64,000 nt of DNA, taken from the NCBI RefSeq assembly GCF_003316695.1, contig NZ_PDKB01000009.1:1-64000 (forward strand), in the 5' to 3' direction. Source of the DNA: Aliarcobacter vitoriensis (GTDB lineage: Bacteria > Campylobacterota > Campylobacteria > Campylobacterales > Arcobacteraceae). Positions 1 through 40,729 of the stretch are shown here, in pieces. The position numbers and the translations under genes were made by a program. The notes under the pieces are model-generated. The model had not been told where the DNA came from and did not search any database. It saw nothing but the letters and a program-made list of their open reading frames with translations. Every line of letters starts with the position of its first letter. The first letter of the stretch is position 1.

Positions 1-2171
1 GGGGGGGTACGGTATTAGATAGTTTAAATAGTGTACTAAATCCAAATGAATTAAAAGCTATTCAAGAAGATGGTGTAATATATATAATAGAAAAACCAAA
101 ATATCAAAACTTTGGTAATACTACTGTTTTAGATGAAATTTCTGTCTCTAGTTCTAATTATAAAAATGGAAGTGCTGAATCAGGATACCTTGTAGAAGAA
201 ACATCAGCAATTGGTATTTGGAATGAAAGAAAACTACAAGACACTCCATACTCAATGAGTATAATCTCAAAAGACTTAATTGAAAATGTTCAAGCTAAAG
301 ATATGAATCAGATTTTTAAGATGAATCCTACTACGCAAGAAACAAAAAATTCACTTGTTGGTTGGGGAGATAATGAATGGGCTACTATGCGTGGTTTTAA
401 AGTTAAGACACCTATTGTAAATGGTATTCCATATTCAAGTAATCATGCTAGTAGTATTATGATGCAAGATATAGAAAGAGTTGAAATCATTAGTGGGGCA
501 ACTGGGTTTTTATATGGTGGTGGAAGAGTTGGCGGAGCAGTTAATTATATAACTAAAAAATCAACAACAGAAGACTTAAAAAATATCTCAATAGGTACTT
601 ATGGTAATAAATCATACTATGGAACTATAGATTTAGGTGGACAATTTGATGAAGATAATACTTTTGGATATAGAATAAATGCTTTATATCAAAATGGAGA
701 GTTACCTGATACTTCTGAAAAAGAGCAAAAAGCTATAAGTTTAGTATTTGATTGGAAACCAACAGATAATTTCTATACTGATTTAAAATATGCGTATAGA
801 GATGTATTTACTAAAGGTACTGGATTTTATGTTGATTCTAGTTCAGATAGAAAAAGTATTAAAAATAATAAAAAATATAGCCCAGATTGGATAGATGGAG
901 AAACAAAATCAAATAAAATTGAAAATAATATAAATTGGAATATCAATGATATTTTTACTTTAAGAACAAATCTATTTTATGAAAAGATGGAAGCTAGACA
1001 AGATTGGGCATTAGTTACATATCAAAATAATATTGTTATATCTAATCCTCGAACTTTTTTTTCTAAACAATCTTGGTACGAAACAAAAAATTATGGTGCA
1101 AATATTTACTTAGATGCTAGTTTTGATACTGGAAGTATTAGCCATACATTAACAACTGGATACTCTTTAAGTTCAAGTAAAAATTCTAGACCATCTGATG
1201 CTTGGGCTGATTATATACCGAGTAATAATATGAGTCTAAATGACTTCAAAAATTTATCAGAACCTGATGATTCCCTTTGGACTAATCCAACTGTTGGAAC
1301 ACAACCACTTAAACCGTTTTCAAAAGAACAATATAAGAATATTTTAATCGGTGATGATATAGTTTTCAATGAGCAATGGAGTTCATTAGTAGGAGTAAAC
1401 TATGCAACAGCTATAAATAAAAGCTATACTGCAAATACAAAATATGATGAGTCTGTATTAACTCCTACTTTATCACTTATTTATAAACCATTTGAAAATT
1501 TAACAACTTATATAACATATATAGAAAGCTTGGAAGCTGGAGAGATTGTTGGAAGTTGGTATCAAAATGAAGGAGATATTTTAGATCCATATAAAAGTAA
1601 ACAGTATGAAGTTGGAGCAAAATATAGTATATTAGATGATAAAGCTTTACTTACAGCTTCACTTTTTAGGATAGAAAAAGTAAATAGTTATGAAGATAAT
1701 ACAACACCAAAACGAACTTTAACTCAAGATGGAGAAGCTATTCATCAAGGTTTTGAGCTTGGAATCACTGGAAAAGTAACTGATAATCTGACACTTATTG
1801 CTGGTGGAACTTTAATGGATCTAAGTGTAGAAAAACATAGTAATAAAACTATTGAAGGTAAAAAACCAACAGAAGTTGCTACAAAAATGGCAAAAATATT
1901 TGCAGAGTATCAAATACCATATATAGATGGTTTAGCAATAAGTGGCGGAGCTTACTATACTGGAAAGAGATATTATGATAGTGCAAATACAGCTATTATG
2001 CCATCATATACACTTTATGATGCAGGTTTAAGATATAAAACAAAATTTGGACAATATCCAACAACTTTTAACCTAAATATACAAAATTTAACTGATGAAG
2101 CTTATTGGGCAGAGGGAACTATGCTTGGAGATCCAAGAAGTATTGCATTCTCTATGAAAATGGAGTTTTAA
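1..2171 (+). CDS. TonB-dependent siderophore receptor, 5' end missing
   Basis: The reading frame is open from base 3 and runs into the first ATG at 255 without a stop, so this is the 3' part of a longer gene and 255 is not the true start. Bases 3-105 encode the end of an STN (secretin/TonB short N-terminal) domain (GTVLDSLNSVL, then DGVIYIIEKP). A plug domain follows, with DTPYSMSIISKDLI and RVEIISGATGFLYG, then a beta-barrel ending in the terminal phenylalanine typical of outer-membrane proteins. An STN domain means the receptor probably signals to an anti-sigma factor, whose gene would lie outside the window. The ligand is probably a ferric siderophore, but it cannot be named. Confidence 0.93.
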   Translation, partial: GGTVLDSLNSVLNPNELKAIQEDGVIYIIEKPKYQNFGNTTVLDEISVSSSNYKNGSAESGYLVEETSAIGIWNERKLQDTPYSMSIISKDLIENVQAKDMNQIFKMNPTTQETKNSLVGWGDNEWATMRGFKVKTPIVNGIPYSSNHASSIMMQDIERVEIISGATGFLYGGGRVGGAVNYITKKSTTEDLKNISIGTYGNKSYYGTIDLGGQFDEDNTFGYRINALYQNGELPDTSEKEQKAISLVFDWKPTDNFYTDLKYAYRDVFTKGTGFYVDSSSDRKSIKNNKKYSPDWIDGETKSNKIENNINWNINDIFTLRTNLFYEKMEARQDWALVTYQNNIVISNPRTFFSKQSWYETKNYGANIYLDASFDTGSISHTLTTGYSLSSSKNSRPSDAWADYIPSNNMSLNDFKNLSEPDDSLWTNPTVGTQPLKPFSKEQYKNILIGDDIVFNEQWSSLVGVNYATAINKSYTANTKYDESVLTPTLSLIYKPFENLTTYITYIESLEAGEIVGSWYQNEGDILDPYKSKQYEVGAKYSILDDKALLTASLFRIEKVNSYEDNTTPKRTLTQDGEAIHQGFELGITGKVTDNLTLIAGGTLMDLSVEKHSNKTIEGKKPTEVATKMAKIFAEYQIPYIDGLAISGGAYYTGKRYYDSANTAIMPSYTLYDAGLRYKTKFGQYPTTFNLNIQNLTDEAYWAEGTMLGDPRSIAFSMKMEF

Positions 2172-2185
2172 GAATATTTAAAAAT

Positions 2186-2320
2186 AAAGAGAGTTTTTTA
2201 CTCTCTTTGTGCTTTTAAGCATGGGTTTCAAAGTATTTTTATTTAGTTTTTGATTAAAATTTCGATACAAAAAATATACTTTCCTTTTGTACTTTGGAAC
2301 TCATACTTAAGGGTATAAAT
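2186..2320. repeat. Structured receptor-associated repeat, copy 1
   Basis: Begins 14 bases after the receptor stop codon. It opens with a hairpin (AAAGAGAG, 7-base loop, CTCTCTTT at 2186-2208). A second, larger inverted repeat follows: GCATGGGTTTCAAAGTA at 2219-2235 pairs with GTACTTTGGAACTCATAC near 2289-2306. Exact blocks shared with copy 2 (40599-40729) include GATTAAAATTTCGAT and AACTCATACTTAA. The first hairpin could end receptor transcription. The function of the rest is unknown. Confidence 0.8.
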
Positions 2321-38264: not shown

Positions 38265-40595
38265 ATGAATTTTTCAAAACATTCATTAGTTGCCTCAAGT
38301 TTATTGTTACTTTTGGGTATGAACTCATTTGCCGATGAAGTATATACTATCCAAAATAAAACTTTGAAAGAGGCATTGGAGATTATATCTAAAAAATCAA
38401 ACTTATCATATATTGCAAATGATGAGGTACTAGATAGAAAAAGTACAAATAATATAGAAGATATTGAAGGTACTCAACAAGCTTTAGATAAACTTTTAGA
38501 AGGTTCAGGACTAAAAGCTATAATTGATGATAAATCAATAGTTATAGTAAAAGAACAAGGTGTTGTAAAAGTTATAAATGGAACTTATGTATTGGATGAT
38601 GTTTCTGTAAAAAGTGGAAATTATCTAGGAAGTACAACAGAGAACTCAAACTCGTATACAACTGGAAGTATGAGTACAGCTACAAAACTTGATTTATCTA
38701 TAAGAGAAACTCCACAATCAGTTAAAGTTATAACACAAGAATATCTCCAAGATGCAAATATTGATTCTTCTCACAAATTGTTTGATAATATCACAGGTTT
38801 ATCTCCTTATAGAACACATGAAACATATACTGTTTATGGAAGAGGATTTGTAGTTGATTATTACCTTTTTGATGGTTTACCAACTACAGATTTAGTTAGT
38901 GATTATGATTTAAGTATTTATGATAGGGTAGAGATTGTAAAAGGTGCAAATGGACTTATGACAGGTGCGGGAGATCCTTCAATGGGAATGAACTTTATAC
39001 GAAAATTTGCAAATTCAAAAGAATTTAAAGGTAATATTGATTTATCTGCTGGTTCTTGGGATGATTATAAAGTATCAACAGATATTCAAACACCATTAAA
39101 TACTGATGGAACTATAAGAGCTAGATTGGTAGCAAAACATCAAGATAAAAAATCTTTTATGGATGGATATAAAGAAAAAAGAGATACATTTTATGGTGTA
39201 GTTGATATGGATTTAACAGATACTTCATATCTATCTTTAGGTGCTAGTTATGAAAAAAAAGATATTGATGGTGCAAGAGCAGGTGGTTTGCCAGCTTTTT
39301 ATAATGGACAAAGAGTAAATCTTGATAGGTCAAAAATTATAAATGCTGATTGGACATATGATAATAATGAGATTAAAACAATCTATGCAAAAGCAACGCA
39401 ATATTTATATGAAGATATATCTTTAAATTTGAATTATTCACATAAAATAGTAAATAATGAGCAAGCTCTTTATCAAATATGGGGAGCAAGTCCAACATAT
39501 AATGGATACTATTGGAGTTATGCAGGTGATAGTGAACATAAAGAAGACAATTTTGATATTTATGCTTCTATTCCTTTTAAGTTAGGTGGATTAGAGCATG
39601 AAATCGTTACTGGTTTTATGTATAACAAAAATGAATTAACTAAAAGTAATAATAAATATGGATTAGATTTAGATACATCTATGTATGATATAGACTTAGA
39701 TAAAAAAGTTTCTCTTATTTCACCATATAAATTAACTAAAGGTAATTTAGAACAAACGACACAAACAGGAACTTATCTTGCTGGAAAATTCTCTTTAATG
39801 GAAGATTTAAAACTTATTACTGGACTTAGAGTTTCAAATTGGGAGTATAAAAATAAAACAACTGGTTCAGGAAATAGAGAGTTTGAAAATGAACTAACAC
39901 CTTATGCAGGAGTAATCTATGATATAGATGAGAATCACTCAGTTTATGCAAGTTATACAGATATTTTTAAACCACAAAATGCTAAAGATAAAAATGATAA
40001 TTATCTTGACCCAATAGTTGGAAAAAACTATGAAACTGGTATCAAAGGAGAGTATTTTGATAAAAGGCTAAATACAGCAATTTCTATTTTTAGAATAGAA
40101 CAAGATGGGGTATCCGAAATTGATAAAAGTGGTAAAAATATAATAACAGGTGGAACAGCATATAAAGCAGTAAAAGGAGTTGTAAGTAAAGGAGTAGAGT
40201 TTGAAGTTGATGGAGAAATAACTGATAATTGGAACTTATCTTTTGGTATAGCAAACTTTGAAGCAAAAAATGCTCAAGGTGAAAAATTCACTACAACTTC
40301 ATCAAGAACAACAGCAAATTTATTTACAAAATATAAAATCAATAAAGATTTTGCTATTGGTGGAGGATTAAACTATAAAAGTAAATTTTATGATATGGAT
40401 AGTGGAGAAAAAATCCAACAAGATGCTTATATCATAGCAAATGTTATGGCTTCTTATGATGTAACAAAAGATTTAAAACTTCAATTAAATATTAATAATT
40501 TATTTGATGAAAAATATTATGAAGGAATAGCTTTCTATGGTATGCATTATGGGGAACCTAGAAGTTTTGCTTTAAATATGAGATATTCATTTTAA
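38265..40595 (+). CDS. TonB-dependent siderophore receptor with STN domain
   Basis: The protein has 776 residues. Signal peptide 1-23. The STN domain is at about 26-95 (YTIQNKTLKEALEIISKKS, LLEGSGLKAIIDDKSIVIVK). The plug follows (IRETPQSVKVITQEYLQD; GVRVEIV-like segment YDRVEIVKGANGLMTGAGDP), then a 22-strand type barrel ending in Phe. With the two genes upstream it makes a FecIRA-type surface-signalling unit for a ferric siderophore. The 161-base gap before it may hold the ECF promoter. The repeat at 40599 begins 3 bases after the stop. Confidence 0.95.
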   Translation: MNFSKHSLVASSLLLLLGMNSFADEVYTIQNKTLKEALEIISKKSNLSYIANDEVLDRKSTNNIEDIEGTQQALDKLLEGSGLKAIIDDKSIVIVKEQGVVKVINGTYVLDDVSVKSGNYLGSTTENSNSYTTGSMSTATKLDLSIRETPQSVKVITQEYLQDANIDSSHKLFDNITGLSPYRTHETYTVYGRGFVVDYYLFDGLPTTDLVSDYDLSIYDRVEIVKGANGLMTGAGDPSMGMNFIRKFANSKEFKGNIDLSAGSWDDYKVSTDIQTPLNTDGTIRARLVAKHQDKKSFMDGYKEKRDTFYGVVDMDLTDTSYLSLGASYEKKDIDGARAGGLPAFYNGQRVNLDRSKIINADWTYDNNEIKTIYAKATQYLYEDISLNLNYSHKIVNNEQALYQIWGASPTYNGYYWSYAGDSEHKEDNFDIYASIPFKLGGLEHEIVTGFMYNKNELTKSNNKYGLDLDTSMYDIDLDKKVSLISPYKLTKGNLEQTTQTGTYLAGKFSLMEDLKLITGLRVSNWEYKNKTTGSGNREFENELTPYAGVIYDIDENHSVYASYTDIFKPQNAKDKNDNYLDPIVGKNYETGIKGEYFDKRLNTAISIFRIEQDGVSEIDKSGKNIITGGTAYKAVKGVVSKGVEFEVDGEITDNWNLSFGIANFEAKNAQGEKFTTTSSRTTANLFTKYKINKDFAIGGGLNYKSKFYDMDSGEKIQQDAYIIANVMASYDVTKDLKLQLNINNLFDEKYYEGIAFYGMHYGEPRSFALNMRYSF

Positions 40596-40598
40596 TAT

Positions 40599-40729
40599 AA
40601 AGAGAGTTTTGCTCTCTTTGTACTTTTAGGCATGAGTTTCAAAGTATTTATTTAATTTTGAGATTAAAATTTCGATTATAAAATATACTTTCCTTGTATG
40701 CTTTGAAACTCATACTTAATGGTATAAAT
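40599..40729. repeat. Structured receptor-associated repeat, copy 2
   Basis: AAAGAGAG/CTCTCTTT hairpin at 40599-40619, then an inverted repeat between CATGAGTTTCAAAG (40631-40644) and CTTTGAAACTCAT (40701-40713). It is over 80% identical by eye to 2186-2320. Where the two copies differ within the inverted-repeat arms, at two positions the change turns an A-U pair into a G-U pair, so pairing is kept. This supports a functional RNA or DNA hairpin. Confidence 0.8.

Follow-up and report, generated by a model that had tools for sequence, protein, structure and literature searches.

A dispersed RNA hairpin behind TonB-dependent receptor genes of Aliarcobacter vitoriensis with a loop complementary to the leaders of other receptors

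Introduction

The 14 paralogous FopS small RNAs (sRNAs) of Bacteroides thetaiotaomicron repress SusC-like TonB-dependent transporters at the start codon (PMC11697453). A different arrangement is represented by 3'-UTR-derived sRNAs and sponges such as SroC, SkatA, MalH and OppZ (PMC9438474; for MalH, PMC8081044), where the 3' portion of an mRNA, from a transporter gene or another gene, supplies an RNA with related mRNAs or sRNAs as its targets. In neither case is the RNA a repeat scattered over the 3' UTRs of the gene family that it regulates. Dispersed palindromic repeats at the 3' ends of genes do occur, as intergenic REP/MITE-type sequences. How bacteria that have dozens of TonB receptors settle on those they display is an open question, and little is known about RNA regulation in Arcobacteraceae.

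Here we analyze a repeated element found in a 64,000-nucleotide stretch of the Aliarcobacter vitoriensis genome (positions 1 to 64,000 of contig NZ_PDKB01000009.1; hereafter, the window). Functionally, FopS is the nearest case that we found, being likewise a multicopy RNA family; its members pair with the translation start regions of TonB-dependent transporter mRNAs. However, FopS RNAs have stand-alone genes, their own promoters and a 5' seed, whereas copies of the element lie in the receptors' own 3' UTRs, and their putative pairing sequence is located in the long loop of a hairpin; we claim no sequence relationship. Mechanistically, SroC, SkatA and other RNAs of the second kind are nearest, but as described these are single loci, while the element resides behind some twenty paralogous genes and has several antisense segments. 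It differs from REP/MITE-type repeats in its fixed orientation, its association with one gene family, RNA-strand-specific pairing and a loop complementary to leaders.

Results

Two copies of the element in the window

A repeat of two hairpins directly follows the stop codons of two genes for TonB-dependent receptors (TBDRs), exactly where the earlier note had placed it (Table 1). The two copies are 86% (BLAST) or 82% (global alignment) identical, in keeping with the figure of over 80% given there. The receptors had also been said to be clearly diverged, and indeed the last 150 nt of the two genes are only 51% identical compared with 82% for the repeats; the 150 nt downstream of the copies are 43% identical. 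Both copies fold far better than dinucleotide shuffles (z-scores of -6.7 and -7.3; none of 200 shuffles equalled them). For each copy, the mRNA strand also gives a better fold than the reverse strand does. Hairpin 2 is the larger unit, with a stem of about 23–27 bp and a loop of 50–55 nt. The true 5' end of the copy 1 receptor is off the contig, which begins within a poly-G tract (GGGGGGG). The closest named relatives found for the copy 2 receptor are from Acinetobacter (46%).

Table 1. Positions of the two element copies, their parts and the receptor genes upstream of them in the window
Feature	Position	Strand	Remarks
TonB-dependent receptor, plug and beta-barrel, upstream of copy 1	255..2171	+	Pfam PF00593/PF07715
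Copy 1 hairpin 1, AAAGAGAG/CTCTCTTT	2186..2208	+	14 bases after stop at 2171
Copy 1 hairpin 2 (element proper)	2212..2316	+	Covariance model R1 match, 94.4 bits; fold
Copy 1 loop segment B, GATTAAAATTTCGATA, antisense to Fur-type TBDR leaders	2252..2267	+	
Copy 1 loop segment C, ATATACTTTCCTTTT, complementary to the Shine-Dalgarno/start region in two TBDR genes	2274..2288	+	
TonB-dependent receptor, STN, plug and barrel, upstream of copy 2	38265..40595	+	Pfam
Copy 2 hairpin 1	40599..40619	+	3 bases after stop at 40595
Copy 2 hairpin 2 (element proper)	40623..40725	+	Covariance model R1 match, 109.2 bits
Copy 2 loop segment A, TTAATTTTGAGA, complementary to poly-G TBDR leaders of the ECF type (TCTCAAAATTAA)	40652..40663	+	
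Copy 2 loop segment B	40662..40677	+	1 mismatch to the 16-mer
Copy 2 loop segment C	40683..40697	+	1 mismatch to the 15-mer

Distribution of the element

We searched the whole source genome (G000; L numbers denote loci) at the DNA level and counted 17 full-length copies as well as several diverged or partial ones. Thus, the two copies behind two receptors that the earlier note reported are both present, but represent a large undercount. A covariance model (R1) built from 15 of the own-genome copies likewise detected 17 copies, each scoring at least 92 bits. Examination of the flanks showed that all 17 full copies are located directly behind TBDR stop codons in the mRNA sense. Among the diverged or truncated copies, that at L019 comes after a TBDR-DUF4198 pair and those at L063, L103 and L073 after a TBDR; one more (L336) follows a gene with a C-terminus resembling those that precede the elements of relatives. 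As the genome has 67 TBDR barrel matches, about one third of the TBDR genes bear the element. Most other TBDR genes are without it, and behind many of the other receptors only hairpin 1 is found. In addition, there are three cases in which a different hairpin takes the place of hairpin 1 while hairpin 2 is retained. Taken together, the receptors with hairpin 1 only and the retention of hairpin 2 next to another upstream hairpin identify hairpin 2 as the unit. The median identity is 91% for element copies, 54% for the adjoining receptor 3' ends and 37% for the sequence beyond; hence, the element is not a remnant of gene duplication, as had been argued from the two window copies.

The earlier note had proposed a search of related genomes, and R1 revealed 20 further copies in 8 of 103 other Arcobacteraceae genomes: six in G012, eight in G014 and one each in G027, G029, G030, G006, G010 and G085 (in G029, there is an additional reverse-strand match at the same place as the copy). 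All are downstream of same-strand genes: some directly follow a TBDR, others a run of genes, for example TBDR-hypothetical-PepSY-hypothetical. The copies are diverged between species. A search of Rfam release 15, at both gathering and permissive settings, produced only chance-level matches with no family's gathering threshold reached, in agreement with the view that no named family fits. The element was not described in the literature searched, a set that most subscription papers fall outside of. With the hairpin repeated behind iron/nutrient receptor genes and its loop complementary to the leaders of other receptors, this looks like a network undescribed until now, through which receptor mRNAs could damp one another's translation.

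Hairpin 2 is an RNA structure

Since copies from the own genome alone displayed no double changes, sequences of relatives were needed to assess covariation. In an alignment of 23 sequences across genomes (most rows from other genomes), 95.5% of the cells of a 23-pair stem are standard pairs, a figure favoured in the own-genome rows by the derivation of the consensus structure from these copies. Changes on both sides are present in 10 of the 23 pairs, so the covariation check suggested earlier yielded compensatory changes across genomes. None of 500 shuffles paired as well, and no slid register came close. The non-Watson-Crick mismatches in the stem are strongly biased on the mRNA strand, with 72 G.U compared to 4 A.C. 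The ratio is 61:4 without the three own-genome rows heading the alignment, and 15:4 if distinct position/type states are counted (p = 0.019). Such a strand bias is not expected for a DNA palindrome or a transposon end, and so argues against both. Hairpin 2 is therefore an RNA structure. Within G000 the loop is conserved to the same extent as the stem.

Hairpin 1 and possible transcription into hairpin 2

Hairpin 1 is the common terminator-like hairpin of TBDR genes in this genome and is also present behind receptors without the element. Hairpin 2 resembles these intrinsic terminators in its position just after the stop codon, adjacent to hairpin 1, but differs from them in its 50-nt loop and lack of a U-tract, and hairpin 1 also occurs without it. 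Hairpin 2 itself does not qualify as an intrinsic terminator, having a loop of ~50 nt and no U-run after CTTAAGGGTATAAAT. In the element-bearing copies, hairpin 1 is followed by GTACTTTT or a similar sequence instead of a clean U-run, and a consensus scan predicted a terminator solely on the reverse strand in the case of copy 1 and none on either strand in the case of copy 2. Because there is neither a clean U-run nor a predicted mRNA-strand terminator, read-through past hairpin 1 into hairpin 2 seems plausible. Hairpin 2 is placed beyond the terminator-like hairpin 1, and most transcripts may end at the latter. The same type of scan, based on consensus sequences only, detected no promoter-like site on the mRNA strand, either within the window copies or beside them. 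A stand-alone gene with its own promoter, as in FopS, was accordingly not found with the consensus promoter scan, and the copies sit behind TBDR genes; we therefore do not count the element as a member of FopS.

Three loop segments fit three classes of receptor leaders

The loop is nearly invariant and comprises three segments (A, B and C) that fit three classes of TBDR leaders. This complementarity is new here and was absent from the earlier note. Segment B (GAUUAAAAUUUCGAUA) has an exact complement over 18 nt in the leaders of L061, L064 and L072, and several other leaders match it over 11–13 nt. Apart from the element copies, its 16-mer has four exact matches in the genome, all of them in TBDR leaders. 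For segment C (AUAUACUUUCCUUUU), the complement is the Shine-Dalgarno/start region, over 15 nt in L087 and 14 nt in L121, and takes in both the Shine-Dalgarno site and the start codon. The order of segments B and C is wrong for one continuous duplex with a single leader. Segment A (UUAAUUUUGAGA) fits UCUCAAAAUUAA of the poly-G receptor leaders, which lie downstream of GTCC..CGTC-type promoters that we take to be ECF-type. Its 12-mer has 49 genomic occurrences compared with 3 for the reversed control; sites outside the elements are nearly all in poly-G leaders, the others being the start of a porin gene and three unrelated genes.

An exact complement of at least 12 nt to the loop is present in 27 of 52 TBDR leaders and in none of 62 control leaders (Fisher, 4e-12), with the controls coming from one window only, with starts chosen automatically throughout, and with 18–20 of the target leaders being related members of one paralogous ECF-type group. 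The loops are very A+U-rich; at the same length there was 1 same-sense match, and shuffles gave a mean of 0.42. To account for relatedness, leaders were collapsed into families; since a loose BLAST collapse merged nearly all of them, we used a stricter one resulting in 27 families, 7 of which have the complement versus 0 of 62 controls (p = 1.3e-4). Duplex energies point in the same direction, with a median of -14.1 kcal/mol for TBDR leaders and -10.5 kcal/mol for controls (p = 1.1e-5). Neither the reverse strand nor the reversed loop gave a duplex-energy signal.

The relatives follow the same trend more weakly. In G014, a 12-nt complement is found in 9 of 31 TBDR leaders as against 4 of 59 controls (p = 0.009), while in G012 the numbers (2 of 14 and 0 of 26) go in the same direction without being significant (p = 0.12). 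For most single elements of G012 and G014 there is no significant energy difference. Still, the three best TBDR targets of one G014 element are all leaders of the segment-B class (-30.2, -26.0 and -25.7 kcal/mol). When loops of G000 were compared with the leaders of each genome, they fitted 28 of 52 in G000 but only 1 of 14 in G012 and 4 of 31 in G014, the far better fit to their own leaders being what co-adaptation predicts. Overall, the element has three of the features looked for in a 3'-UTR-derived base-pairing sRNA: a 3'-UTR location in the mRNA sense, conserved RNA secondary structure and, in G000 and G014 although not significantly in G012, complementarity above chance.

A leader motif and the putative major porin

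Leaders of the segment-B class have a 5' hairpin of their own, with a variable stem and the loop (Y)UCCUAAA; next to it comes GAAAUUUUAAUC. No consensus pairs were obtained for this leader motif with RNAalifold; therefore, the model for it (R2) is based on sequence only, and covariation in the stem was judged by eye. The motif occurs mainly in genomes that also bear elements (G000, G012, G014 and G029) and in addition in G025. Weak R2 matches in other genomes are mostly within coding regions or on the antisense strand of the porin gene. G025 also has a standalone candidate with a Fur-box-like upstream sequence (by eye), a hairpin and a terminator. At the DNA level (loop YTCCTAAA, then GAAATTTTAATC) the motif was seen at L061, L064, L071, L072, L084 and L099 of G000, L240, L242 and L300 of G014, L244 of G012, L177 of G029 and L249/L289/L304 of G025.

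The motif is complementary to the ribosome-binding region GATTAAAATTTC-GAAA-TTTTAGGAG of a porin gene, which we read as that of the major porin from its conserved N-terminus and context. The predicted duplexes (-23.6 and -23.8 kcal/mol) are more stable than the control minima (-16.7 and -15.2 kcal/mol). The G000 loop is itself predicted to pair with the porin mRNA at -31.6 kcal/mol, via large internal loops. The porin leader GATTAAAATTTCGAAATTTTAGGAG, a self-complementary stretch adjoining the Shine-Dalgarno site, is kept beyond the genus (L171 of G000, L250, L251, L258, L290 and L291).

Possible role of the element and alternatives

The earlier note had offered a 3'-UTR-derived sRNA, a stability element and a mobile repeat as possible identities, and a 3'-UTR RNA with a base-pairing function is now the best supported of them. 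The best explanation, to which we assign moderate confidence, is a dispersed 3'-UTR base-pairing element of TBDR units that mediates crosstalk among receptor mRNAs. The long stem would display the ~50-nt loop, whose antisense segments, three at most, correspond to separate classes of TBDR mRNAs; every segment is the complement of the leader or of the ribosome-binding region in its class. We infer that the element is transcribed together with its receptor and acts either in situ, within the mRNA, or after release, as a stable RNA cut back to the stem. It would then pair in trans with the leaders of other receptors, and possibly with the major porin mRNA. By covering the leader, the Shine-Dalgarno site or the start codon, such pairing would presumably lower translation, and a receptor that is expressed would in this way hold down its competitors.

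The main rival is a sponge or decoy, in which the 3' elements mimic the porin site and soak up leader RNA of the segment-B class (Fur-type). The two ideas are not mutually exclusive, and we regard the sponge as rather unlikely. It would make sense of the complementarity between the porin leader and the TBDR leader motif beyond the control minima, of segment B having the same sense as the porin site, of the standalone leader motif candidate in G025 and of the presence of the motif mainly in element-bearing genomes. However, segments A and C, which fit other leaders, are left unexplained, a standalone candidate was not found in the own genome, and no element was detected in G025. The hairpin might otherwise act in cis, protecting the mRNA from 3' exonucleases or aiding termination, with an incidental loop. 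Although the two hairpins fold very stably (-40 to -44 kcal/mol) right behind the stop codons and pairing is conserved, as such a role would require, a passive protector would not be expected to have a loop conserved like its stem within the genome, nor one complementary to leaders, and most other TBDR genes lack the element; we consider this explanation improbable.

Two further alternatives concern DNA. Copies that are ~91% alike within the genome and diverged between species, together with the many TBDR genes at contig ends, could be reconciled with a recombination module, that is, a 3' sequence for gene conversion or cassette exchange among receptors that keeps the copies alike. Yet the flanking coding sequence is not homogenised (54%), and compensatory changes along with strand-specific G.U pairs indicate selection at the RNA level, making this reading quite improbable. 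Even less credence can be given to a non-autonomous mobile repeat (MITE/REP-like) with stem arms as terminal inverted repeats, inserting at receptor 3' ends. The palindromic arms do end in TTAAG/CTTAA, identity within the genome is high and hairpin 2 can be preceded by either of two distinct hairpins, but every copy examined has the same orientation behind a TBDR unit, with none found elsewhere, and strand-specific G.U mismatches are unexpected for a DNA palindrome. The mobile repeat of the earlier note was thus not borne out. The two orientations and varied gene contexts of MITE/REP sequences were looked for and not observed, and in the plasmids and phages searched there were only short chance-level matches to the element.

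If base pairing between receptor mRNAs is accepted as the working explanation, it may be extended, tentatively, to a genome-wide RNA crosstalk network. Here, a common multi-seed antisense hairpin directed against the leaders of paralogues and the major porin would co-evolve with them and help to set which receptors are made. The network would then help to choose among about 65 receptors, partly phase-variable, much like a surface-protein hierarchy or exclusion system, and 3' UTRs would be evolving in concert as a family rather than singly. The shared element complementary to leaders makes this a concrete, testable circuit, for which pairs, segments and mutations can be named.

Other observations at the receptor loci

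About 27 TBDR genes (in the range L061-L126, e.g. L070, L077, L082 and L112) have a poly-G tract in the signal peptide/STN region. The tracts are nearly all exactly G9, and the window begins inside one of them. By our reading, G9 leaves most of these receptors out of frame and G8 would restore it; in L063 and L071, the frame is kept by G9. The set is thus either a large phase-variable receptor repertoire that is almost all off, or one subject to transcriptional slippage.

A second class of element loop (AACATCAATTTAGATTAGGAGCTAAAGTT), in which TTAGGAG is the complement of the loop CTCCTAA of the leader hairpin, is located behind other TBDR operons (L019, L157, L163 and L027). Behind some receptors (L016, L017, L018 and L073), the AAAGAGAG hairpin is preceded by another repeated hairpin (CTGGGACT..AGTCCCAG) or gives way to it. 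Contigs of G000 end inside TBDR genes or leaders in many instances (C7, C9, C12, C15, C16, C18, C20, C26, C44, C65 and C66), which suggests long near-identical stretches among the paralogues. Finally, five element copies (L002, L005, L006, L008 and L009) have RhuM-family and similar proteins encoded downstream; these differ in their N-terminal parts and have a common C-terminus (YDSYxFINDLLKL...KDLGKKWFAFSK).
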